A DNA stretch of 64,000 nucleotides, taken from the NCBI RefSeq assembly GCF_003990975.1, contig NZ_RZJR01000003.1, positions 1 through 64,000 on the forward strand, in the 5' to 3' direction. The stretch comes from Cohnella sp. AR92. Lineage in GTDB: Bacteria > Bacillota > Bacilli > Paenibacillales > Paenibacillaceae. A program made the position numbers and the translations under genes. Positions 1,007 through 15,120 of this stretch are shown here, one piece after another; the first letter of the stretch is position 1; each line of letters opens with the position of its first letter. The notes under the pieces are model-generated. The model ran no database searches. It was not told where the DNA came from and worked only from the letters and a program-made list of their open reading frames with translations.

Positions 1007-1142
1007 TTTTCCTTAGCTTCTATGAGTAGCAAAATAGCATATAAAGACAACAATATATGTGAGGAAATCTACCGCAAAAGCTACGTTGATTCTGGTAATA
1101 TGGGAATAACCATACAGTTATACCATTCCAGAGGTGAGTCGA

Positions 1143-2381
1143 GTGCTTCGTATGATGATTGTCGACGATGAATCCAGGACGCTGGCTGGACTCCAAAGAT
1201 GTCTGCAATGGAGCGATTTAAATATACGCATCGTTGGACAAGCTAGCAACGGCAGGGATGCGATCCAACTGGCCGACCAGTTGAATCCGGATATTGTACT
1301 CACCGATATCCGCATGCCGGTCATTAACGGCATCGATCTCTCCAGAATGTTAAAAAAGAGCGTCCCGCGGACGAAGGTTATTTTTCTCACCGCTCATATG
1401 GATCCCGACTATATGAAATCGGCTTTTAAAGAAGGGATTGTCGATTACTTATTAAAGCCAGTCAATATTAAAGAACTCGAACAGACGATCCGGAAAACGG
1501 CAGACATATGCCGGCAAGAGAAAATGGAAGAGCAGCGGTTGGCGGAGCTGGAATCCATGCTTCGCGAGAGCTTGCCGCTTCTGCAAAGAGAATTTCTCGA
1601 AAGCTTGGTATTTGGCGAGATGGAAGCCCAAGAGGACATCATCGAACGTCTGGAATCTCTCGAACTGGGAATCCCCACGACCGGAAGCTACTTGGCGTTA
1701 TCGATTCAATTGGATGATTATGCGGCGCTTAAGAGACAATTCTCTGCCCGCGATATCGGGCGGCTGTCCAAGCGGCTACTCCGAGAGATAAAGGCCGCGT
1801 ATGATGAATCAGGCTTCGTATTCGAACTGAGGGAAGCCGAATATGTCGCGTTGTTGCATGCGGCCGGATCGACCGCGAATAGGGAAGGGCTTGCAGCGGA
1901 GCAAGTAAAGGCTCTGACGAAGGATATTAACAGGGTGCTCAATGAAACCGTCGGGCAGAACGCGACGATCGGAATCGGCCATTGGGTTGATAATCTGGAA
2001 AAGCTGAAGGACTCCTACTCTACGGCGTTACATGGCTCTTTGTACGTCGCACAGCCGGATTCGAACTCTTACAAAATGATTGAGCGCCTGAAAACCATTA
2101 TGAAAGAAAGATTTGCCGAGAATTTGTCTATCGGCCTCTTGGCGAATGAAGTGTTCATATCGCCTCATCATATGTGCTTGTTGTTTAAGAAAATAACCGG
2201 AGAAACGATCAATGGCTATTTAACCCGAATCCGGATTGAAGAAGCAAAGAAGCTGTTGATGCAGGGAACGAAGAAACTGCCCGAAGTTTGTCTGGAGGTC
2301 GGATATACCGACCCCAAATATTTCAGCAAGCTGTTCAAGAAACATACGGGAACGAATCCATCGGATTATAAGAAGGCTTAA
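1143..2381 (+). CDS. Response regulator, receiver + AraC-type HTH (YesN family)
   Basis: A 412-residue transcription factor. The N-terminal receiver domain (about 1-120) has acidic residues D8/D9, the phospho-acceptor D55 (in LTDIRMP), T83 and K105. The middle has no clear motif. The last about 95 residues form an AraC/XylS double helix-turn-helix ending in FKKHTGTNPSDYKKA. The GTG at 1143 is preferred because AGAGGTGA sits 5 bases upstream; an in-frame GTG at 1134 overlaps that site. No histidine kinase gene is adjacent, so it is an orphan here. It lies directly before three subtilase genes in the same direction, with a terminator between, and may control them (inference). In this family such proteins usually answer to a YesM-type kinase and control polymer-degrading genes. 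Confidence 0.92.
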   Translation: MLRMMIVDDESRTLAGLQRCLQWSDLNIRIVGQASNGRDAIQLADQLNPDIVLTDIRMPVINGIDLSRMLKKSVPRTKVIFLTAHMDPDYMKSAFKEGIVDYLLKPVNIKELEQTIRKTADICRQEKMEEQRLAELESMLRESLPLLQREFLESLVFGEMEAQEDIIERLESLELGIPTTGSYLALSIQLDDYAALKRQFSARDIGRLSKRLLREIKAAYDESGFVFELREAEYVALLHAAGSTANREGLAAEQVKALTKDINRVLNETVGQNATIGIGHWVDNLEKLKDSYSTALHGSLYVAQPDSNSYKMIERLKTIMKERFAENLSIGLLANEVFISPHHMCLLFKKITGETINGYLTRIRIEEAKKLLMQGTKKLPEVCLEVGYTDPKYFSKLFKKHTGTNPSDYKKA

Positions 2382-2389
2382 TAGATCGG

Positions 2390-2418
2390 AAGCACCGCCA
2401 CAGGCGGTGCTTTTCTAT
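2390..2418 (+). terminator. Terminator after the response regulator
   Basis: AGCACCGCC-ACA-GGCGGTGCTTTTCTATTTT: 9-bp GC-rich stem and T-rich tail, just after the stop codon. It separates the regulator from the subtilase genes. Confidence 0.85.
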
Positions 2419-2544: not shown

Positions 2545-5500
2545 TTGGAGAGTAAAAGGATGAAACAATCTTTATCGGTCATCTTATCAGTCGGAATGTT
2601 ATTCGGCTCGATGATGAATCCGGCAGCCCATGCCGAGTCTAACGGGCCCGCAAGCGGTTCGCTGTCTGCAGAACCTTCGCAGACATCGGACCGCATTATT
2701 GTGAAATATAAAGACGGCGCGGATCGACAAAAATTGTATGCGAAATATGCGTTAAAGGCGATGGAGCAGCTGAAACTGCCCAATACCAGCCTGGACGTAT
2801 TGGAAGTTTCGCCTAGGGCGAATGTGTCGAGCGTGATCGATTCGTTGGAACAGGATCCGAACGTGCTCTATGCGGAGCCGGATATCCAAATCCGAAGTTC
2901 AAGCCCGAGCGGTCAATTTCCGGCCGGTTCGAATCCAGCAAACGAAGCTTCGTCAACCTCGGTACCTGCGGGAACCGCGTCGATCGCACCAGCTAGCTCA
3001 ATGGAGGCCTTGAGTCTTTTCTCCTCCCCTTCTCAGCCTAACGATCCGCATTTCCCCGAACAATGGGGCCTCCAAAATATCGGTCAAAATTTGCCTAATC
3101 AGACACCGTCCATGGCGACATGGGATATCGATATGGATGTGCCGGAAGCTTGGCAAATCACGCAGGGCTCCGACGATGCGATCGTTGCCATTATTGATAC
3201 GGGCGTTGAGATCGATCACCCCGATCTGCAAGACAGCATCTGGACAAACAAAGGAGAAATAGCGGGCAACGGCAAGGACGATGATGGCAACGGCTTTGTC
3301 GATGACGTGCACGGCTGGAACTTCTACGGCGGGAATAATTCGCTCTATAACATTTTCGATGATGACCTTCAAGGTACGCAAATGGCCGGAGTGATTGCGG
3401 CTGCCGCGAATAACGAAATCGGTATTGCCGGCGTCGCGCCTCATGCGAAGATCATGCCGCTCAAGGTGATCGGGGCGAATGGGGCGGGATATGTGTCCGA
3501 TGTCATATGGGCCATCGAATACGCTGAACGAATGGGAGCGAAAGTCGTCAACATTAGTTGGTCTCTAACGGAATACAGCCAAGCGTTAAAGGATGCCATC
3601 GACAATTCTTCCATGCTGTTCGTTGCCATTGCCGGCGTGGATTATTTGAACACAAAAGACGAGGCTCCCGAATATCCGGCAGCCTATGACAGCGACAATG
3701 TTCTCTCCGTAACGGGAATAGATCCCCATGGCAACCCCATCAATGCTTATTCTGTTCGGGGGAAGAACGTAGATCTATCCGCGCCAAACACAAATATTTG
3801 GACAACCATTCCAACCAGAAACCCCGGAATCGGCGCGCAAATCGATAACGGCAAGTATAAAGTCGTTTATAACGGGATCGGCTTCGAGAGCATTCAATCC
3901 GATGAATCTCGAATTGCCGCTTTCGATCGGGCGATTCAATACTTCGGCAAGGCCAAACCTTCCATTCTTCTCGTGCAGGATGACGAATGGCAAGCGATCG
4001 GCAGCGACAACAATTATTTGCCGCTCTATCAATCTTTGCTGGGTACCTCAGGCTTTCAATATGACACGATGACCGTTGCCTACGGCGACGACGGCCCATC
4101 GCTGGACAAGTTGAAATCGTATGATCTCGTCGTTTGGTTTACAGGGGATGGAGTAGGTTTGGACTATCAGAATTATCAGATTGGTTCTTACACCACCCCA
4201 CTGAAAGAAGCAGACCAAGAGAGCTTGACAGCCTATTTGAACGGCGGAGGCAATTTACTGCTGACAGGTTCAGCGACGCTGCTAGGCAACGAGTTCTCCC
4301 CCTTTGTGAAGGACATTCTGCATTTGGATGCCGTAAGAAATAATTATTCCAGGTCAGGCGAAATCTGGGACAAAGCAGAAGGAGCGCCTGGCACGTTGAA
4401 TGACGGGCTCTCGTTCGACATGTTCTCGAGTTTTACTTACGATGACATGGTATCAAACGATCCTTCCATAACGACCGTCAATTTGAACGCGGTGCTTGAG
4501 GATTATGCCTATACCAGTGGCTTTGAATTTCCCGCGGCTTACGCCTCGGGGGTTGCGGCTTTGATTTACAGCCAATATCCGACAGAGGACGCTTCCGTTG
4601 TCAAGGAAAGAATGATCCTTAACGGCAAGCCGTTCTATCCGGATGAAGATGTCACGGCCAGCAATAAAATGGTGGACGCGTACAAAGCGCTGACCGATAA
4701 CGACCTCCCAGGTCAACCTTATATCGGGGAAAGTTATTCCGATACGCTTGATGCAGAGACGGATGCCCATGATGTGTACTATATCAACTTGCATAAAGGC
4801 GACCAATTGGACCTTACTCTGGCAGGCGATTCGGGAACGGATTTCGACTTGCATCTGTTTGATCCCACCGCTCAATCTTTATATGATACCCAGAAAGTGG
4901 CGGCAAGCTCGGAGACAAGAGAAAGCTCCGCTGAATCGATCTCCTATGCAGCGACTGTAACAGGAACCTATTTTATTGACGTAGCTGCATACAGCGGCGC
5001 GGGCGGATATACCATCAGCGCACAGAGGACCCCCGTTCACCAGACGGGAACCTACGAGGACACCGATGAGGCTCTTGCTTTTACCGGATCTTGGTCGACC
5101 AAGACGGATGCTGGACATTCGGGAGGCACGGCAAAGCAGTTAGATGCAGCCGGCAGCGTTGAATTCTCGTTTACGGGCGGCCAAATCGAATGGATCGGCT
5201 ATAAAAATAACGAGCAAGGAATAGCGGATGTCTTTATCGATGGAGTAAAAGTCAAATCGGTATCCCTATACAGCGAATCTCCGCAAACGCAGCAAGTTCT
5301 CTTCAGCGAGTCATTGCCTCTTGGCGGACATGCGATCTCCATCAAGTGGACGGGGAAATCGGACCCGGCAGCGAAGAAATCGGCGAATTCGATTAATATC
5401 GATGCCTTGCGCGTTGTGACGGCAACCAAATCGTATACGGTGAGAACCGAAGAGCAAGATTCGTCCTTCGCTTTCTACGGGACATGGACCGCCTTGAATA

Positions 5501-6246
5501 ACGAGAACTATTCGGGAGGACGGACCAAATCGACAAGCGCCAAAGGCGCCTACGTTACTATTCCTTTCACGGGTACAAAGGTCGTGCTGCTGGCTACTGC
5601 CATACCTAATGGCGGAAAGGCGAAAATCATGATCGATAATCGACCGGAAACAGCCCGAATAGTAGATTTCTATAGCGCTGCTTCCAAATACCAAGTCGCT
5701 ATGTTCGATTCGGGAGAGTTGGAGTATGGCCGGCATACGCTCCATGTAATGAACATTGGCGAGCATAATGCGAGCTCCGCCGGGTTTACGATCGATGTGG
5801 ATGCGATTGTGGTAACGAAGCCTTCCTCCGCGAATGAAGTCACCAAATGGTACGAGGAGTCCAATCCCTATGTGAACCTGCATGGCACATGGACGTACTC
5901 GATGAATGGCAAATATTCGGATAGGAGCGCCGCCTATACCGATCTCGCAGGAAACTATGCGGAGCTTTATTTCGTCGGCTCGAAGGTTAGCGTACTGGCG
6001 ACTACCGGGCCTAATCGAGGGAAAGTCTATGTTTACGTGGATGGGAATCTAGTAACGGACGAGCCTATTGATCTCTATAACGAGACCTACCGTTTCCAAG
6101 TTCCTATCTTTGAATCCGCAGAGCTGCCTGGCGGAAGCCATACGATCAAAGTGGTGAACGCAGGCGAGAAGAATGGGCTTTCTACTGGAAATTATGTCTC
6201 TATCGATGCGTTTCTTGTCACTTATTCTGTGGGAAAAGGGGAATAA
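2545..6246 (+). CDS. Secreted S8 subtilase-like protein, catalytic residues lost (pseudoprotease)
   Basis: 1233 residues. The TTG start is 5 bases after AGGAGGAGAGGA; an in-frame ATG at 2560 is the alternative. Order: signal peptide (about 1-30, ending AAHAES), propeptide-like segment (RIIVKYKDG about 51 to YAEPD about 113), S8 core (about 170-700) split by a Rossmann/GATase-like insertion (about 425-590), PPC domain (about 725-830), and three beta-sandwich carbohydrate-binding-like modules to the C terminus. Against its paralogue at 11272 the catalytic Asp is kept (D218 in IIDTG), but the His of HGTQVAG is Q276 (LQGTQMAG), the oxyanion Asn of AGN is V365 (AGVD), and the Ser of SGTSF is E661 (SGFEF). 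It should therefore bind but not cut, or act as a chaperone, decoy or scaffold; that role is inference. Three bases separate its stop from the next gene, so both are probably co-transcribed. Confidence 0.9.
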   Translation: MESKRMKQSLSVILSVGMLFGSMMNPAAHAESNGPASGSLSAEPSQTSDRIIVKYKDGADRQKLYAKYALKAMEQLKLPNTSLDVLEVSPRANVSSVIDSLEQDPNVLYAEPDIQIRSSSPSGQFPAGSNPANEASSTSVPAGTASIAPASSMEALSLFSSPSQPNDPHFPEQWGLQNIGQNLPNQTPSMATWDIDMDVPEAWQITQGSDDAIVAIIDTGVEIDHPDLQDSIWTNKGEIAGNGKDDDGNGFVDDVHGWNFYGGNNSLYNIFDDDLQGTQMAGVIAAAANNEIGIAGVAPHAKIMPLKVIGANGAGYVSDVIWAIEYAERMGAKVVNISWSLTEYSQALKDAIDNSSMLFVAIAGVDYLNTKDEAPEYPAAYDSDNVLSVTGIDPHGNPINAYSVRGKNVDLSAPNTNIWTTIPTRNPGIGAQIDNGKYKVVYNGIGFESIQSDESRIAAFDRAIQYFGKAKPSILLVQDDEWQAIGSDNNYLPLYQSLLGTSGFQYDTMTVAYGDDGPSLDKLKSYDLVVWFTGDGVGLDYQNYQIGSYTTPLKEADQESLTAYLNGGGNLLLTGSATLLGNEFSPFVKDILHLDAVRNNYSRSGEIWDKAEGAPGTLNDGLSFDMFSSFTYDDMVSNDPSITTVNLNAVLEDYAYTSGFEFPAAYASGVAALIYSQYPTEDASVVKERMILNGKPFYPDEDVTASNKMVDAYKALTDNDLPGQPYIGESYSDTLDAETDAHDVYYINLHKGDQLDLTLAGDSGTDFDLHLFDPTAQSLYDTQKVAASSETRESSAESISYAATVTGTYFIDVAAYSGAGGYTISAQRTPVHQTGTYEDTDEALAFTGSWSTKTDAGHSGGTAKQLDAAGSVEFSFTGGQIEWIGYKNNEQGIADVFIDGVKVKSVSLYSESPQTQQVLFSESLPLGGHAISIKWTGKSDPAAKKSANSINIDALRVVTATKSYTVRTEEQDSSFAFYGTWTALNNENYSGGRTKSTSAKGAYVTIPFTGTKVVLLATAIPNGGKAKIMIDNRPETARIVDFYSAASKYQVAMFDSGELEYGRHTLHVMNIGEHNASSAGFTIDVDAIVVTKPSSANEVTKWYEESNPYVNLHGTWTYSMNGKYSDRSAAYTDLAGNYAELYFVGSKVSVLATTGPNRGKVYVYVDGNLVTDEPIDLYNETYRFQVPIFESAELPGGSHTIKVVNAGEKNGLSTGNYVSIDAFLVTYSVGKGE

Positions 6247-6249
6247 ACC

Positions 6250-9200
6250 TTGAAGAAATTATTTACGAAACAGACAATCTCATTTGCGGCGGCCCTGCTC
6301 CTGGCGTTCCAAGGCTCGGCTTATAGCATGGCTGCGGCTCCCGCTAGTTCGATTCAACCCGATAAACTAGCCCGGTCCATTCAGGAGAAGATCTCCCAAG
6401 TGAAACCAGAAGCATTCTCTGAAGGGACGCCAGACGTATACGTTTCCCCCGAGATCGACACCGATTCGTCTGACAAGATAAAAGTCATCGTACAGTTGAG
6501 CGGCTCTCCCGTATCGGTAGGGAAGTACAATCTCCATCTGCAAAAGAGATCTCTCACTACCCAAACCATCCAGGCGCTGGAAAAGACCGTTAACGCGGAG
6601 CAATCCACTTTTGTAAGCGGGGCTCGTTCCGAGGGCGTTAGCCTGAAGGTGAATCGTCAATATAACACGGTCTTGAATGGCTTGGAAGTGACGATTCCCG
6701 CCAATCAAATTTCGGAGCTGGCGAAGATGCCTGGAGTGAAGGGGATCTATGAGAACCGGACCTATTATCCGCTGGACACCGCTGTTGCCGACGAGACGGA
6801 AGCAACGACCGGCGGCGATAAAGAATTTGATATCAACCCGCTTGAACAGCTTGGCGTCCCCGAGGCATGGGCGGAAGGCTTAACCGGCAAGGGAATGAAA
6901 ATCGGGGTTCTCGATACCGGGGTGGATTATCTTCATCCGGATTTAAAGGATGCCTATGTGAAGGATAAAAGCTATGACGTCTTCCATGATGATGACGATC
7001 CTTACGAAGATCTGCCCGACGAGAATGACCATTATGAAGGTTCCCACCACGGAACGCACGTATCGGGCACGATTGTCGGAAGAGCCGCGAATGACACCGA
7101 TCTTCCTGTCCAGAAAGGAATCGCATACGATGCGGCGCTGTATTCGTATAAGGTTCTGGGAAAGACGTTGCAAAGCGACGGCTCTTGGGGGGACAGCGGC
7201 ACCTCTGCGGTAATCATTGCCGGTATTGAACGAGCCGTTAAAGATGGAATGGACGTAATCAACATGTCGCTGGGATCGGACTCGGAGAAAAGCCCTTATA
7301 CGGCAGAAGCGATTGCGGTGAATAATGCTACGCTTGCCGGAGTCGTTGTCGTTGTGGCTAACGGGAATGCGGGCGATTCCGGTCCGTACTACTATTCGAT
7401 GGGTTCGCCTGCCAGTGCTTCTTTCGCCATTTCCGTAGCTGCTGCAAACAGCAAGAATAACAAATACGAGACTTCCATCGCTAGAGTCTATCCAGAGATG
7501 GTCCCAGTGACTACATCGATCGAAGACGATGATCGGTCGATAGATTGGGGTACTCCTAACAACTGGACTCAAGTAGACGGCGACCAATACACCGCCGGTC
7601 ATGCCAAAACGTTGACCAGCGGGGGACCGACAGTAAACTTCCCGTTTAAAGGAACAGGCGTGAAATTGCTAGCTTCCAAAACGCCGAGCAGCGGGACCAT
7701 ACAGGTGTTCGTGGATGACGGCAATAATGGTGTTTATCCAATAAATTTAAATAGTGCTTCCGAAGAGAATCAGGTAACGGTATTGGAAGTAACCGATTTA
7801 CCGAATGGTCCGCACAAGCTTGGTATCCAGGCATCCGGCGCTAACGCAATCATCGATCAGATTCAAGTGACAAGCCTCGTACCTTCCATCGCGGCGGCAA
7901 GCGGCCAAGCGTTGGAATCCTCCGAGACTAATCAGGCAGAACCAACGGCCGAACCAACGGCCGAACCAACGGCCGAACCAACGGCAGAACCAACGGCAGA
8001 ACCAACGACAGAACCAACGGCAGAACCAATGGCCGAGCCAACGACAGAGTCAACGGCAGAACCAACGGCAGAATCAACGACAGAGCCAACGGCAGAATCA
8101 ACGACAGAGCCAACGGCAGAGCCGACAGAGGAGCTTGATTATCAACCGATCGACTTGGTGTCCTGGAAGAATGGGCAAACCGATTTCGACGCGATGTTTG
8201 GCGCGGCGCCGATCGAGGCTGTATATGTGGGGCTGGGCGATAAGTCCGATTATGCCCATGTCGATGTAGCCGGCAAGATCGCCTTTGTTTCGCGCGGATA
8301 TGTTGATTTGGTTGGTAAAATTAATAATGCCAAAGAGCATGGCGCGATCGCTGTCATCATGTTTAACGGGATCGATAAGGTCGTTGACGGCGTGCCTGTC
8401 CCCGATTTATCCGAATCCATTAACGGGAGAGACGGTCAGATTGGCGATTTGCTAGCGGTAGGAGCAACCCCTAACGGCTTGCCGACATTCGATATGGCGG
8501 GTCGGGAAGGACGTGCCCTTGCAAGGCAACTACTGGAACAGCCGGAGGAACCGCTATACTTCTCATTCGGCGAGTCTTTCAACGAAGTGCTTGACCCGGG
8601 GGATCACATTGCCGGCTTTAGTTCCCGAGGACCGGTATCGGATAACAACTACTCCATCAAGCCGGATATCAGCGGACCGGGGGTCAATATCTATTCGACT
8701 TGGCCTGCCTATGGGAATGTCGACCCGAATGCCAATTATAAGGAAGCCTACAATCGAATCAGCGGAACAAGCATGGCTACTCCGCATATTGCCGGCCTTT
8801 CGCTTCTCTTGAAGCAAGAGCATCCGAATTGGACGCCTTTCGATATTCGCGCCGCCTTGGCCAATACGTCCGATTTGTTGAGCGATAAGGAAGGAACTCT
8901 GTACGATGTGTACTCGCAAGGAGCGGGACGCGCGGACTTGGCGAATGCCATCAAGACGCCGGCGTTGCTGAAGGCGATGGATGACACGACGATCTACGAT
9001 GAGAACATGAACGTAAAGACATTGGCAAGTCAGGCCGTCAGCCTTAGCTTCGGGGCATTGGAGGCAGGGGCGGATGCGGTATCCAAGCCGTTGCGACTGG
9101 AGAATAAATCGTCCGGCGCTGTTACCTATATAGCTAAAGTGGAGATGCATCCGAAAGTAACGTCCGATCCGAACGATCCGATCGATACGCCTGATCCGAA

Positions 9201-11157
9201 TAATGTGGAAGTCACGCTGGGGAATGTGGATGAGACAGGTCTAATTACCGCAGCCGCCAATGGCGCGTACGACTTTACATTGTCGGCAAAGGCTCTTGCG
9301 AATGCAACTCATGGCGTGTATGAAGGAGAAGTTATATTAGAGAACCCGGGATATCCGTCGTTGCATCTCCCATTTGTCATTCATGTGGGCGACGACGTGG
9401 ATGATAACGATTTTCCAATTAAGGATGTTCAGCTGTCGGACATGAAGCTTTCTCCTCTGTACAATCCGGTTGATCTATCCTTCACCTTAAATGCGGATAA
9501 TATTAACTATATTCTCGTTTATGTAACGGACTCGAATGGATATCTTCTCGGAACGATTGGCAACATGTATTCGGATGATTTAAGTTTTATTTCTCCCGGG
9601 AAAAAGTTATTCGAACAGCTCGATGGAACGTATCTTACTTTCTCCGACGAACCGGACCTTGATGGGAACCCGGATACAGAGGTCTTGCAAGACGGGCAGT
9701 ATTCTCTTCTTATTGCCGCTTTGCACCTGGACGAGAACGGAGAGGAAGTAGAGAAGGATACTCAGGTTGCCTTCGAAACCTTGGTTGTCGATCGTTCCTA
9801 CAAATCGAACTCCGGCGGCCCGGGAGAACCGGTTGATCCAGGCAATCCTGGCGGTCCAAGCGGCCCAGGCGGTCCAGGCGGCGGCTTAGGCGGCGGCGGT
9901 CTTGGCGGAGAAGCAGCCGAAACGGAAGCATCCAACAATCAAGAAGTGCTGGCTTCCGTTATCAAGCAAGGACAAATAAAGGTCTCTGTAAAAGGAGTAG
10001 CTGCAACAGAAGGAAATAAATCGAAGGTGTCGGTACCGGACGAAGAGTGGAAGAAAGCGCTGGAGGCGGCGAAGCAATCGAAGAGTTCCCTCGTCATCGG
10101 TGCGTCTTCCGATACCAAGGAAGCCCAATTGATCCTTACCAAAGAGCAGCTGGCGCAGCTGAAGAATATGGCGGATGACAGTTCCCTAATTTTCTCGTGG
10201 AATAATGCAACAGCGTCCTTGCTATTATCGGCTTTGAAGCAAGTGCCTGCCGGAAGCGATTTTGTGATGACGATCAAGGAAGCGGCGGACAGCAAGCCGC
10301 TATTTGCGAAGCAGCGCTCGGATGCCGAGCTGCTGGGAACTCCATATGCCGTCACCGTGCAAACCGTAGCCAACGGCGCGGCGAAGCCGTTCACGGTATC
10401 GTCCGGTCAGGCTGTGCAGTTCGCATTCCTGCTGGATAAAGGAGTGGATGCGAATTCGGTAAGCGTCCTGTACACTGAGGGAGACAAGTCGTATCCGGCT
10501 CCGGCGAAATTTACGGCGACCAAGGACGGCAAAACGGTTGTTACCGTTACGCGCTTCGGATTCGGAACCTACGCTGCGGCGAAACGAAACATAGCCTTTA
10601 GCGATATCGGCACTTCTTGGGCCAAGACCCAGATCCAATTGCTCGCGAACAAATTTATCCTGAATGGAACGACGGAGTCCGCGTTCTCGCCGAAGAGCAA
10701 CGTGACTCGTGCGCAATTCGCAACCATGCTGGTCCAAGCATTGGGCTTGTCCAAGCAAGCATCGGGCGCGCCGTTCGGCGATGTAAGCCCAAGCGCTTGG
10801 TATGCGGAAGACGTCGCAACGGCCTATGCGGCAGGACTTATTGCAGGCTCGAACGGCGAGTTCAGGCCTAATGACGAGATCAGCCGCCAAGAGCTGGCCG
10901 TCATGCTCGTTAGAGCGCTTGAGCTCCTTAAGAATCAAGGAGAAGCGGACGACACGGCGGGCAAGTCATATGGGGATGCCGAAGAGTTCGGAGGATTCGC
11001 CAAAGCAAGCATCGAAGCCGTAACGAAGGCGGGATTGATGAACGGTTCCGAAGCGAACGGAGTGTCCTACTTCCATCCGACCGATTCGACGACCCGGGCG
11101 GAAGCGGCCAAAGTCCTGCTTGAATTGCTCGCTTCAGCCAATCTGATTAATAAGTAA
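6250..11157 (+). CDS. S-layer-anchored subtilisin-like serine protease (S8) with PA and SLH domains
   Basis: 1635 residues, TTG start 7 bases after AAAAGGGGA. Order: signal peptide (1-29), inhibitor-I9-like propeptide (about 55-175), S8 catalytic domain with D222 (VLDTGVD), H267 (HHGTHVSG) and S841 (SGTSMATP), all intact. Between His and Ser lie a beta-sandwich module (about 420-540), a (A/T)EPT low-complexity linker (563-626) and a protease-associated (PA) domain (about 645-775). After the catalytic domain come a C5a-peptidase/Fn3-like segment, a Gly/Pro-rich linker (about 1190-1220) and three SLH domains (about 1455-1630), which bind pyruvylated wall polymer. It should act at the cell surface. 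It sits between two paralogous subtilases and probably shares the transcript of the first. Confidence 0.94.
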   Translation: MKKLFTKQTISFAAALLLAFQGSAYSMAAAPASSIQPDKLARSIQEKISQVKPEAFSEGTPDVYVSPEIDTDSSDKIKVIVQLSGSPVSVGKYNLHLQKRSLTTQTIQALEKTVNAEQSTFVSGARSEGVSLKVNRQYNTVLNGLEVTIPANQISELAKMPGVKGIYENRTYYPLDTAVADETEATTGGDKEFDINPLEQLGVPEAWAEGLTGKGMKIGVLDTGVDYLHPDLKDAYVKDKSYDVFHDDDDPYEDLPDENDHYEGSHHGTHVSGTIVGRAANDTDLPVQKGIAYDAALYSYKVLGKTLQSDGSWGDSGTSAVIIAGIERAVKDGMDVINMSLGSDSEKSPYTAEAIAVNNATLAGVVVVVANGNAGDSGPYYYSMGSPASASFAISVAAANSKNNKYETSIARVYPEMVPVTTSIEDDDRSIDWGTPNNWTQVDGDQYTAGHAKTLTSGGPTVNFPFKGTGVKLLASKTPSSGTIQVFVDDGNNGVYPINLNSASEENQVTVLEVTDLPNGPHKLGIQASGANAIIDQIQVTSLVPSIAAASGQALESSETNQAEPTAEPTAEPTAEPTAEPTAEPTTEPTAEPMAEPTTESTAEPTAESTTEPTAESTTEPTAEPTEELDYQPIDLVSWKNGQTDFDAMFGAAPIEAVYVGLGDKSDYAHVDVAGKIAFVSRGYVDLVGKINNAKEHGAIAVIMFNGIDKVVDGVPVPDLSESINGRDGQIGDLLAVGATPNGLPTFDMAGREGRALARQLLEQPEEPLYFSFGESFNEVLDPGDHIAGFSSRGPVSDNNYSIKPDISGPGVNIYSTWPAYGNVDPNANYKEAYNRISGTSMATPHIAGLSLLLKQEHPNWTPFDIRAALANTSDLLSDKEGTLYDVYSQGAGRADLANAIKTPALLKAMDDTTIYDENMNVKTLASQAVSLSFGALEAGADAVSKPLRLENKSSGAVTYIAKVEMHPKVTSDPNDPIDTPDPNNVEVTLGNVDETGLITAAANGAYDFTLSAKALANATHGVYEGEVILENPGYPSLHLPFVIHVGDDVDDNDFPIKDVQLSDMKLSPLYNPVDLSFTLNADNINYILVYVTDSNGYLLGTIGNMYSDDLSFISPGKKLFEQLDGTYLTFSDEPDLDGNPDTEVLQDGQYSLLIAALHLDENGEEVEKDTQVAFETLVVDRSYKSNSGGPGEPVDPGNPGGPSGPGGPGGGLGGGGLGGEAAETEASNNQEVLASVIKQGQIKVSVKGVAATEGNKSKVSVPDEEWKKALEAAKQSKSSLVIGASSDTKEAQLILTKEQLAQLKNMADDSSLIFSWNNATASLLLSALKQVPAGSDFVMTIKEAADSKPLFAKQRSDAELLGTPYAVTVQTVANGAAKPFTVSSGQAVQFAFLLDKGVDANSVSVLYTEGDKSYPAPAKFTATKDGKTVVTVTRFGFGTYAAAKRNIAFSDIGTSWAKTQIQLLANKFILNGTTESAFSPKSNVTRAQFATMLVQALGLSKQASGAPFGDVSPSAWYAEDVATAYAAGLIAGSNGEFRPNDEISRQELAVMLVRALELLKNQGEADDTAGKSYGDAEEFGGFAKASIEAVTKAGLMNGSEANGVSYFHPTDSTTRAEAAKVLLELLASANLINK
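7936..8127 (+). repeat. 12-bp tandem repeat coding (A/T)EPT units
   Basis: About 16 head-to-tail copies of a 12-bp unit (GCAGAACCAACG and variants) inside the subtilase gene, coding Ala/Thr-Glu-Pro-Thr. The first copies are nearly identical, later ones diverged (EST, EPM variants). Copy number in such repeats can change by slippage; because the unit is a multiple of three, the reading frame is kept. Confidence 0.95.
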
Positions 11158-11271: not shown

Positions 11272-14200
11272 TTGAATAGAATACGAGGAAAAAAGTCTTT
11301 GTCCGCGATTCTTTCTATTTCCTTGCTGCTCGGTCTGTTCGCCGCTCAACTGACGGCTCACGCAGAGCCAAGAAAAAGTCAATGGCCGGCAGAACAACAA
11401 GCAGAGGATCAATCGGAACCAATCGCGCCGGATATTGGCCATCCGCTTACGGAAGATCAGCAGCCTTACGATCAACCTTCGGAAACGGCATTCCGCAACA
11501 AGGATGCCGAATCGGATGCCAGCAGCGAACAACGGATTATCGTCAAATATAAGAGCGGAGCCAGTCTCGGGCAGATTCAGGCCAAGCTTGCTTCGACTCA
11601 ATCGGCAACACAGTCTTGGGAGCTGGCCAAGTCCGGTTTGGGAGTAATGAAGCTCTCTCCCAAAGCGGATATGGATAAAGCGATTGCCGCGTTAAAGAAA
11701 GATCCCAACGTGCTTTACGCAGAGCCGGATTCCAAGGTTCGAATCGCTTCTCTACCGAACGATCCGAGATTCGGCGAGCAATGGGGATTGCATAACGAAG
11801 GGCAACCGGCTGACGGAGACATGGTCGACGATGTTTTTGTCGATGGGGTTAAATTGTATGGAACCGTTGATACGGATATCAATGCGCCGGAGGCATGGGA
11901 TATTTCCCAGGGCAGCGACAGCGTCGTCGTTGCCGTCCTAGACACGGGGATTGATATTGCCCATCCCGACTTGACAAACAATATATGGGTGAACAAAAGG
12001 GAGATCCCCGGTAACGGACTGGACGATGACCGCAATGGGTTCGTTGACGACGTGCATGGCTGGGACTTCTACAATAAGGATAACTCTCTGTTCGATGCTT
12101 GGGACGGCGATATTCATGGCACGCAAGTCGCGGGTATCCTTGCCGCATCCGCGAATAATGGAATCGGCATTGCCGGCACGGCGCCGAAGGTAAAAGTTCT
12201 GCCGTTGAAAGTGATCGGGCCCGATGGAACAGGGTATGTATCGGATATCATTCAGGCGATCCAATACGCGGAACAAGCGGGGGCTCAAGTTGCCAATCTT
12301 AGCTGGGTTACCAGTGTGCCTAGCGTGGCATTGAAAGAGGCCATTGAAGCCTCTCCCTTGTTGTTTGTCGCGGCAGCCGGCAACGATCTAGGTAATGGTA
12401 CATCAAACGCAGTGCGAGACCTGGATCGTATTCCGGTATATCCGGCTGCTTATGACAGCGATAATATTCTTTCCGTCGGAGCCATGAGTTTCTATAAACA
12501 GTTGATGTGGTATTCGAATTACGGAAAAGAGACGGTGGACGTGGCCGCTCCTGGGACGAGCATTCTAAGTACGGTCCCTACGCGAAATATCGGGTTAGGA
12601 GCCCAGATCGGCAATGGCAAGTATAAGGCTATTGTGAATTCCATTGGATTCGAGTTAATAAAAGACGATCAGAAGAGGCTGGAAGCATTCAAGAAAGCCC
12701 TTCAATATCTGAAGCCTTCCGGTAACTCTAACCCTAAGATTCTACTTGTACAAGATGATGAGAGCGAAATACCAAGCAGAATCGATTTCTTGCCGGTTTA
12801 TCGGACATTGCTGGATTCGACGGGTTATACGTATGATAGGTTGACGTTGCTCCCCGGCGCGTCAGGACCTTCCCTTGATACGTTGAAATCTTACGATATT
12901 GTGATATGGTTTACGGGCATCGCAACGGGAGCTGTTATCGATGATGGGAAGTCGACCTATCGATCTACGAATTTGACAGAGACCGACCAGCAAAATTTGA
13001 CGGGCTATTTAAACGGCGGGGGCAATTTGCTCTTAAGCGGATCGGTGGCGTTGGGAGGAATCACAGACTCTTCGTTCATGAATGAAATGTTGCATTTGGA
13101 ATTTGTCAGACAAGAGAATTCGGACAATGAATCTTGGAGTACAGCTAGCGGCGTTCCCGGTTCCTTGTATAACGGGCAAGCGTACGATCTGACGGATTCG
13201 GGTTTGTTTGCGGATATGGAATCGAACGACCCTTCGATCGCAGTCATGAACTTGGAGATTCCTACGACTGATTATGCGCGCGGTTCAGGAACCTCTTTTG
13301 CCGCTCCGTTCGCTTCAGGGACTGCTGCCTTGCTCTTCAGCCAGGACCCCTTGGCAAGCGCTGAAGACGTGAAAGAAAGAATCATGCTCGGCGGCAAACC
13401 GTTTAGCGACTTGGAAGGGAAAACCGTCTCCGGTAAAATGGTGGATGCTTATAAAGCATTGAATCCGCATGATATTCCGGGCAAACCCATCCATGGGTCA
13501 GGAGCTCAAGGTACTTTGGATGGCGCCAAAGAAAAACGAGACGATGTGTACTATGTATATCTGCGCGCGGGAGAAACATTGAATGTCTCGCTAACGGGAA
13601 CGGCAGGAACGGATTTCGATCTCTACCTTTATAATCCCTCAGCAGCTTCGGTTTCGGCCGTCGCAGGTATGGCTGCTTCATCCGAGAAAAGCAATAGTTC
13701 ATCGGAAACGATCTCCTATAAGGCTGCCAAAGCAGGTTACTACTATATAGATGTCTATGCTTTTGCAGGCGCCGGCAACTATTCGCTCCGCAAATCCCAA
13801 GATTATCGAGACAAGAGCGCAGGTACCTATGAGGATACGAATCCCGCGGTCGTCTTTACCGGAACTTGGTTGACGGTATCCAAACCGGAGTATTCGGGCG
13901 GAACGGCGAAACAACTGAACGAGGCGGGGCAAGCCGAATTCTCGTTTACAGGCAACCAGATTGAATGGATTGCCTTTAAAGACAGCAATCAAGGAATTGC
14001 GGACGTGTATATCGACGGCAAGAAAGCAGCTTCGCCTTCTCTGTTCAGCAGCAGCTTCTTGCCCAAGCAATCCGTCTTCAAGCAAACGATGCCGTATGGC
14101 GTCCATACGATTCGAATCGATTGGACAGGCAATAAGGACTGGCAGTCGTCAGCTGCCGCCGTTAATGTGGATTCCTTCTTTGTTTCCAATGCGCCGGAAA

Positions 14201-15042
14201 CGTTCACCGTAACCTTACAAGAGGACGATCTTGGGGCTATATACTATGGAGACTGGAGAACCTATTCTTCTGCATCCTACTCCGGCGGATTGCAGGCGTC
14301 GTCAGGCAATAAGGGGGATTACGTCGACATCTCGTTCACAGGAACCGGCGTGAAGCTGCTGGCTAATTTGTTCCCTTATATTGGCGGCGAAGCTTCGATT
14401 ACCATTGATCATCACTCAGAAACGGCCCAGACAATCAGCTTTAAGGGAGACAATGATCAATATCAAGTTCCCGTATATGATTCGGGCAAGCTGTCGAACG
14501 GTCCGCATGTGCTTCGAATCGTCAATACGAGTCCTGACCCTAGTTATAGTACGATCTCTGTCGATGCCTTGATTGTTACAAAGGCGACAAGGGAAGAAAC
14601 GATGCCAGAGCCCGTGACCATTATTGAGGAGTATTATCCGTCAGTCGTTTATGAAGGAGTATGGAATACTTCCTTTAGCAGGAAACATTCCGGCATAAGC
14701 GCCAAGTATAGCAACGTATCAGGCAGCTATGCGGAATATACTTTCGAGAGCAATAAGATCAAAGTGCTGGGAGAAACGGGACCGAATCGAGGCAAAGTCA
14801 ATATTTATATCGACGGACAGCTCGTCACGAAGACACCAATCGATCTCTACAGCAGTAAATATCAATATAGAGCCGCCATTTTTGAATCGGATATCCTTGA
14901 CTTCGGCAAGCATACGATCAAAGTGGTGAATGCAGGGGAGAAGAATGAGAAATCCTCCGGAACCTACGTTTCAATCGATGCGTTCCTTGTAGTAGGCGCT
15001 GCGGATGATGGATTCGGAACGGAACAACCGCCGGAAGATTGA
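11272..15042 (+). CDS. Secreted subtilisin-like serine protease (S8), active paralogue
   Basis: 1256 residues, TTG start with AGAAGGAG about 8 bases upstream. Same domain order as the protein at 2545: signal peptide, propeptide (RIIVKYKSG to LYAEPD), S8 core, inserted Rossmann/GATase-like segment (from about KILLVQDDES to LNGGGNLLLSG), PPC domain, three beta-sandwich modules. The catalytic set is complete: D224 (VLDTGID), H282 (IHGTQVAG), N371 (AAGNDLG), S675 (GSGTSFAAP). It should be a secreted endopeptidase whose C-terminal modules bind wall or polysaccharide. It may be read from its own promoter or through the hairpin after the SLH protease. The close similarity over the full length shows a duplication flanking the SLH protease gene. 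Confidence 0.93.
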   Translation: MNRIRGKKSLSAILSISLLLGLFAAQLTAHAEPRKSQWPAEQQAEDQSEPIAPDIGHPLTEDQQPYDQPSETAFRNKDAESDASSEQRIIVKYKSGASLGQIQAKLASTQSATQSWELAKSGLGVMKLSPKADMDKAIAALKKDPNVLYAEPDSKVRIASLPNDPRFGEQWGLHNEGQPADGDMVDDVFVDGVKLYGTVDTDINAPEAWDISQGSDSVVVAVLDTGIDIAHPDLTNNIWVNKREIPGNGLDDDRNGFVDDVHGWDFYNKDNSLFDAWDGDIHGTQVAGILAASANNGIGIAGTAPKVKVLPLKVIGPDGTGYVSDIIQAIQYAEQAGAQVANLSWVTSVPSVALKEAIEASPLLFVAAAGNDLGNGTSNAVRDLDRIPVYPAAYDSDNILSVGAMSFYKQLMWYSNYGKETVDVAAPGTSILSTVPTRNIGLGAQIGNGKYKAIVNSIGFELIKDDQKRLEAFKKALQYLKPSGNSNPKILLVQDDESEIPSRIDFLPVYRTLLDSTGYTYDRLTLLPGASGPSLDTLKSYDIVIWFTGIATGAVIDDGKSTYRSTNLTETDQQNLTGYLNGGGNLLLSGSVALGGITDSSFMNEMLHLEFVRQENSDNESWSTASGVPGSLYNGQAYDLTDSGLFADMESNDPSIAVMNLEIPTTDYARGSGTSFAAPFASGTAALLFSQDPLASAEDVKERIMLGGKPFSDLEGKTVSGKMVDAYKALNPHDIPGKPIHGSGAQGTLDGAKEKRDDVYYVYLRAGETLNVSLTGTAGTDFDLYLYNPSAASVSAVAGMAASSEKSNSSSETISYKAAKAGYYYIDVYAFAGAGNYSLRKSQDYRDKSAGTYEDTNPAVVFTGTWLTVSKPEYSGGTAKQLNEAGQAEFSFTGNQIEWIAFKDSNQGIADVYIDGKKAASPSLFSSSFLPKQSVFKQTMPYGVHTIRIDWTGNKDWQSSAAAVNVDSFFVSNAPETFTVTLQEDDLGAIYYGDWRTYSSASYSGGLQASSGNKGDYVDISFTGTGVKLLANLFPYIGGEASITIDHHSETAQTISFKGDNDQYQVPVYDSGKLSNGPHVLRIVNTSPDPSYSTISVDALIVTKATREETMPEPVTIIEEYYPSVVYEGVWNTSFSRKHSGISAKYSNVSGSYAEYTFESNKIKVLGETGPNRGKVNIYIDGQLVTKTPIDLYSSKYQYRAAIFESDILDFGKHTIKVVNAGEKNEKSSGTYVSIDAFLVVGAADDGFGTEQPPED

Positions 15043-15082: not shown

Positions 15083-15120
15083 AAGGACGCAATCACTTCA
15101 CAGTGATTGCGTCCTTATTG
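15083..15120 (+). terminator. Terminator after the subtilase cluster
   Basis: AAGGACGCAATCACT (15083-15097) pairs with AGTGATTGCGTCCTT (15102-15116) around a TCAC loop, followed by a T-rich stretch (ATTGTTATTTCGTTTT). Very stable. Confidence 0.88.

Follow-up and report, generated by a model that had tools for sequence, protein, structure and literature searches.

The window analysed here, a 64,000-nucleotide (nt) stretch of Cohnella sp. AR92 DNA (positions 1 to 64,000 of NZ_RZJR01000003.1, a contig of 447 kb in a genome of 6.0 Mb), contains a gene (2545..6246, + strand) whose product is, judged by its active-site residues, a catalytically dead subtilase. The protein is probably a secreted pseudoprotease that serves as the non-catalytic partner subunit of an SLH-anchored subtilase encoded directly downstream. 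Purifying selection, a kept predicted fold, a constant neighbour and joint duplication of the two genes form the sequence basis of this reading. The two genes represent a pair that is conserved in soil bacteria and that combines a dead secreted subtilase with an apparently working surface-anchored protease. As a rule, a pseudoprotease is encountered as an isolated end product. The family described here comprises triad-intact as well as dead members, spread over several lineages and paired with one type of active protease, so that the path from enzyme to pseudoenzyme can be followed step by step.

The dead subtilase and its SLH-domain partner

The 2545 gene is an intact open reading frame (ORF) with a TTG start codon (an in-frame ATG 15 nt after it could also serve as start) that encodes 1233 amino acids (aa) plus a stop. 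Its product belongs to the S8 (subtilase) family both by its Peptidase_S8 match in Pfam (PF00082) and by its predicted subtilase fold, which is formed by residues 163-424 and about 641-725. A Fervidolysin-type prodomain (PF22148; residues 48-113) precedes this fold, and a PPC domain (PF04151) follows it, succeeded by about three tandem β-sandwich modules (their number was read by eye). Pfam also assigns a CE2_N domain (PF17996; 47.9 bits) to the protein as a whole, and the N-terminus resembles a signal peptide by eye; an earlier note on this DNA describes signal peptide and binding modules as kept. Prodomain and S8 fold are joined by an expanded linker rich in Pro, Ala, Ser and Thr (2884..3030, + strand; codons of residues 114-162) of about 51 residues, with a pLDDT (predicted local distance difference test) score below 50 at residues 121-158 of the structure prediction. 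An inserted α/β domain (residues about 425-640), common to active and dead members of the family, interrupts the S8 fold. Because a fold search with the whole protein was filled by subtilases, the insert (residues 425-655; window 3817-4509) was folded alone, which gave a pLDDT of 90.9. It has no Pfam match, and its fold search returned only marginal likeness to ThuA-like (class I amidotransferase-like), peptidase E and GH42 domains.

Active S8 enzymes carry an Asp/His/Ser triad and an oxyanion Asn, of which the 2545 protein retains only the Asp. The translation reads D218 (codon 3196..3198), Q276 at the His position (3370..3372), V365 at that of the oxyanion Asn (3637..3639) and E661 at that of the Ser (4525..4527; all + strand), compared with D224/H282/N371/S675 in the paralogue encoded at 11272, to which the protein is 50% identical in pairwise alignment. 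Translations and alignments thus bear out the assignment made in the earlier note; pairwise and 68-row alignments place all four sites alike, and the motif contexts are DDLQGTQMAG, AIAGVD and GFEFPAA versus GDIHGTQVAG, AAAGND and GTSFAAP in the paralogue. Neither alignment puts another His or Ser at the active site, a possibility the earlier note had raised, and the His residues within residues 191-440 stand at 225, 256, 300 and 395, none at or beside 276. Two orthologues were found, both dead and full length, namely P0003 (= L031 of Paenibacillus catalpae; 74% identity, D/L/M/E) and P0004 (70% identity, D/Q/T/E).

Directly downstream, 3 nt past the stop codon of the pseudoprotease gene, begins the gene for a 1635-aa S8 protease (6250..11157, + strand) with intact D/H/N/S, a PA domain, an I9-type prodomain and C-terminal SLH domains. 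This arrangement recurs throughout the family. Neighbourhoods were read for all 55 family genes found in 22 genomes, and 46 of them, 38 of these dead, lie directly upstream of an SLH-S8 partner. In 45 cases the SLH-S8 gene is directly downstream on the same strand, with gaps of -4 to 99 nt. All 45 partners that were aligned keep D/H/N/S; SLH domains were confirmed by Pfam in four partners, and the remaining ones were assigned by a partner profile. The nine unpaired genes, i.e., seven third genes of the triples described below plus L115 and L116, all keep D/H/N/S, and L116 has a weaker match to the SLH-S8 profile further downstream. The converse test, in which a 12-member partner profile was run against the 22 genomes with 27 candidates scored per genome, gave 44 matches of at least 1909 bits, followed by a gap down to 1656. 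Together with a short partner in genome G029 and a two-piece one in G505 these make 46, equal to the number of paired family genes genome by genome. Among 394 family-level genomes (two candidates scored per genome), the matches listed above 1715 bits come only from genomes that hold the family. Given this score gap and the confinement of high scores to family-holding genomes, the paired SLH proteases seem to form a separate subfamily. Related SLH-S8 proteins occur in 318 of the 394 genomes at an expectation value (E) of 1e-60, a count that includes SLH-only matches. They share the general architecture of the partner but score at most 1715 bits, whereas 44 of the 46 paired proteases reach 1909 bits or more, and no adjacent family match turned up for them in the profile searches, although their neighbourhoods were not read.

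Evolutionary distances among family members and among their partners are strongly correlated (r = 0.94; none of 2000 permutations reached this value), and within genomes that carry several pairs r is 0.95 over 69 comparisons. When partners are reshuffled within genomes, the overall r drops to a mean of 0.21 and a maximum of 0.55. By these distances, the dead gene is inherited and duplicated jointly with its partner gene; genome G350 contains nine pairs.

In the window, the pair is followed on the same strand by the third large gene of the cluster, that of the active paralogue (11272..15042, + strand; 1256 aa, D/H/N/S, 8-residue linker, Pro225 kept). Such dead-SLH-active triples number seven (the window, L031, L032, L164, L165, L170 and L171). 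The first gene is dead in all seven (DQVE, DLME, DYDY twice and DYEY three times), and the third has D/H/N/S, an 8-residue linker and Pro225 in all seven, which suggests that a second, active protease has joined the pair. Because a third gene is present in only these seven of the examined clusters, the 11272 paralogue was demoted as a candidate for the constant partner. Among the roles listed in the earlier note, that of a non-catalytic subunit is the best supported, with the SLH subtilase at 6250-11157 rather than the 11272 paralogue as constant partner.

Several individual pairs deviate in detail. The forty-sixth pair (L189:7192-9957, genome G217) consists of a triad-intact family gene with a broken frame and an intact SLH partner, and the G029 partner (L114:4155-7136) is a 993-aa protein without the C-terminal part that holds the SLH domains in others. 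Residues about 440-640 of the window SLH protease contain a repeat of the TEPTAEP type (PF04886) together with an insertion that, by eye, is a module resembling the CE2_N-type ones; Pfam names CE2_N in the P. catalpae partner and not in two shorter partners scanned (L032 and L033).

Dead and intact members of the family

The family was delimited by a protein database search, in which 7997 candidates were scored, 568 passed an E of 1e-30 and the best 120 of the 568 were listed, and by a 15-member family profile (E 1e-150, two candidates scored per genome), which found it in 17 of 394 family-level and 16 of 392 order-level genomes, two sets that overlap. A second search of the 21 other family-holding genomes gave 52 matches at E 1e-120, to which the window genome adds three. 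With 34 database proteins, outgroup included, the 55 genome genes give 89 tree rows. Not included were a truncated duplicate ORF in L180, database proteins that match a locus over their last 250 residues, and P0061, P0064 and P0067 onward; some near-copies remain (e.g., P0009 with L031). Rows were counted as dead when they depart from D/H/N/S at one or more of the four positions, which applies to 50 of the 89, and the catalytic columns were excluded from tree building. The best tree requires four state changes and the starred branches force three, a number that is unsure because the tree is a quick one and two long-branch joins are flagged (P0055 with P0066, and L169 with P0041). A single clade holding all dead rows together was rejected (approximately unbiased test, p-AU 1.1e-39). 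On this tree, the window protein belongs to one of several losses within the family and not to a single event. One row filed under the fungus Hortaea werneckii (P0029) groups with the Paenibacillaceae rows L174 and L177 and is presumably bacterial contamination.

Two further marks accompany the loss of catalytic residues. The first is the linker between prodomain and S8 fold, which measures 25-73 residues in all 50 dead rows, hence at least 20 in every dead member including the window protein, and 7-15 in 38 of the 39 intact rows. The intact exception, P0056, has a 25-residue linker and adjoins a dead clade in the tree. The second is the equivalent of subtilisin Pro225, residue A665 in the window protein (4537..4539, + strand) and usually Ala in paired members. 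This position is not Pro in 45 of the 46 paired genes, including all eight paired D/H/N/S genes, and is Pro in all nine unpaired ones; over the 89 rows Pro is missing in 47 of the 50 dead rows and in 14 of the 39 intact ones. Within residues 163-725, only 206, 387, 674 and 706 besides 665 passed the filter for positions that mark paired members. In engineered subtilisin, the P225A substitution, which forms part of subtiligase, makes the nucleophile helix shorter and displaces residue 221 (PMC7921005). Natural substitution of Pro225 may weaken hydrolysis.

Role of the dead subtilase

Selection was estimated as the ratio of nonsynonymous to synonymous substitution rates (dN/dS; Nei-Gojobori) for 16 gene pairs in all (dS 0.17-0.87). 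Between the window genes and those of P. catalpae, the overall ratio is 0.204 for the dead gene (1224 codons), 0.231 for the SLH partner and 0.154 for the active paralogue. The S8 segment of residues 163-424 has 0.112 in the dead gene versus 0.126 in the active paralogue and the PPC domain 0.158 versus 0.124; PPC and C-terminal modules of the dead protein together range from 0.16 to 0.21, and its disordered linker, a feature of the dead gene only, reaches 0.56. Other dead gene pairs gave 0.107, 0.116, 0.159 and 0.288. The 2545 gene is thus not decaying but under purifying selection, in accordance with the intact frame and lack of decay claimed in the earlier note, and its main S8 segment is constrained as in the enzyme, whereas the part that surrounds the lost Ser is under weaker constraint.

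In the mechanism that we favour, the dead gene and its partner would be made from one transcript and both products exported, after which the two proteins would bind each other at the cell surface. The dead subunit could then position, stabilise or gate the active SLH protease, while its C-terminal β-sandwich modules may hold it on wall or matrix polymers. Its prodomain would remain uncut and attached via the long flexible tether; without the nucleophile, autoprocessing can presumably not take place. As for the order of events, we propose that pairing with the SLH protease came first, then loss of Pro225, and then expansion of the linker and loss of catalytic residues, an outcome that would have been reached several times.

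A number of observations weigh against this mechanism. Adjacency and co-inheritance speak of linkage and not of contact, and the nearest neighbour agrees between the family and partner distance tables in only 29 of 45 pairs. Eight paired members retain D/H/N/S, so that pairs cannot in every case do without catalysis by this member. Three dead rows (L032_10001, P0008 and P0041) hold Pro at the 225 position, counter to the idea that Pro225 always goes first. The independent events amount to three starred pairs for dead state versus linker and two for pairing versus Pro225, numbers with which a p of 0.05 is unreachable; because these events are so few, neither association is statistically secure given descent. 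Moreover, three parts of the dead gene are less constrained than their equivalents in the active paralogue, namely the C-terminal S8 piece (84 codons, with E661; dN/dS 0.267 versus 0.129), the insert (0.231 versus 0.147) and the prodomain (66 codons; 0.205 versus 0.137), and one dead copy pair within one genome has a ratio of 0.534 versus 0.26 for its partner.

Among the alternatives, the leading one, though unlikely, is that the dead subtilase acts as a foldase or assembly chaperone for folding or export of the SLH protease and is absent from the working enzyme. The upstream gene order and 3-nt gap would suit a co-translated helper, and a solved subtilase with a separately encoded chaperone, ASP with ORF2 of Aeromonas sobria (3wqb), appears as a row in the Foldseek list. 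However, the usual foldase of subtilases is the prodomain, and the partner has an I9-type prodomain of its own. Related SLH-S8 proteases are also common in genomes without a detected family member, and tandem polymer-binding-like modules would be unexpected in a chaperone. For the dead protein, a docking or regulatory role is tentatively favoured over that of a chaperone. Slightly less likely again is an inhibitor or decoy, in which the dead protein, perhaps by its tethered prodomain, would inhibit the partner or soak up foreign inhibitors. Subtilase prodomains are classical inhibitors, and the one in question has been retained under constraint and stands on a long linker in all 50 dead rows, but it is of the Fervidolysin type while that of the partner is I9, and inhibition gives no need for a constrained S8 segment or for the C-terminal modules. 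It is improbable that the protein is an independent adhesin, i.e., a glycan-, wall- or matrix-binding protein that is only by chance in a protease operon. This would account for the kept PPC and C-terminal modules, yet it leaves unexplained both the 46-to-46 coupling with SLH proteases and a constraint on residues 163-424 similar to that of the active paralogue. Even less probable is a remodelled site in which D218 and E661 run a non-subtilisin reaction: although both residues are found in all three distinct members of the immediate clade, the residue sets of other dead clades (GYEL, SNDT and DYEY) bear no relation to it, some of them lacking an acid at 218, and the lost His and Ser of the window protein are not replaced. 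Relaxation or decay of a gene duplicate, to which the broken frame in L189, the dead copy pair at 0.53 and the looser C-terminal S8 piece could point, is for the 2545 gene largely ruled out by the low dN/dS overall and over residues 163-424, by intact frames (54 of the 55 family ORFs have at least 1081 aa) and by the two full-length dead orthologues.

Beyond the probable subunit role of the window protein, a broader and decidedly tentative proposal can be made for the Paenibacillales. These bacteria might possess a whole set of two-component protease systems at their surface, with as many as nine pairs per genome, in which the first subtilase repeatedly turns into a pseudoprotease after pairing. 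Pro225 would usually be lost first, with weaker hydrolysis as a result, then the linker would lengthen and the triad go, and the dead subunits could serve their cognate proteases as receptors that sense or that recruit substrates.

Known systems and neighbouring features

S8 pseudoproteases encoded beside active proteases are a known kind, since the Csp proteins of Clostridioides difficile (CspBA-CspC) have this arrangement, with CspA and CspC dead and CspB active; Csp homologues in other clostridia are predicted to be active. The statement of the earlier note that dead subtilases are rarely described in bacteria needs to be qualified accordingly. In 91 prokaryotic genomes, a survey from 2008 classed 42 of 966 proteins, drawn from five families, as putative inactive homologues of serine proteases (PMC2605481), and the S8 pseudoproteases CspA and CspC have been studied well (PMC12880746). 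The Csp proteins act in the spore cortex during germination, whereas the window proteins look secreted, and the dead protein has PPC/CE2_N-type modules and its partner SLH anchors. Membership of the Csp family was rejected because the dead protein does not match the NCBIfam Csp models NF040808 and NF040809 at E 1e-3; the likeness lies in gene arrangement only, with partner activity read from the sequence. Signal peptide and SLH partner argue for a role at the vegetative cell surface rather than in spore germination. The pair may be a secreted, cell-surface counterpart of the Csp pseudoproteases in environmental bacteria, and work on its SLH protease subfamily without the partner might overlook or mis-assay these enzymes. 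Judged by title and the opening of the abstract, none of the literature matches listed describes a secreted, SLH-linked, repeatedly evolved pair, in a search that left subscription journals mostly outside.

Other known structures differ from the dead protein. The solved chain of Deseasin MCP-01 (3vv3), an active enzyme, consists only of an S8 domain of 329 residues, and several of the unautoprocessed pro-subtilisins (3whi, 2z2z and 4jp8) are engineered mutants according to their titles.

Around the cluster, terminator-like hairpins stand before the first gene (2388..2414, + strand) and, with 15 pairs, after the third (15083..15116, + strand), in a terminator scan of the window that was no richer than shuffled sequence (15 found versus 13.9). 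A promoter scan gave 14 against 12.3 expected by chance, again without enrichment. Clustering of the ORFs that flank the family loci revealed no constant neighbour beyond the pair. The largest group comprises 11 loci with varying placement, and by eye alone the groups resemble ABC permeases, sensor kinases and response regulators. The response-regulator group is found in 8 loci and, among the six with positions listed, lies directly upstream only in L031, as it does in the window. There, the gene directly upstream of the cluster (1134..2381, + strand) encodes by Pfam a response-regulator/AraC-type (YesN-like) protein, has no adjacent kinase and possibly regulates the cluster; a P. catalpae regulator of matching architecture (L031:8448-9734) likewise lies directly upstream of its cluster. 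Upstream of regulator and cluster, positions 1-1000 of the window contain, by eye, an apparent rRNA operon end and several tRNAs.

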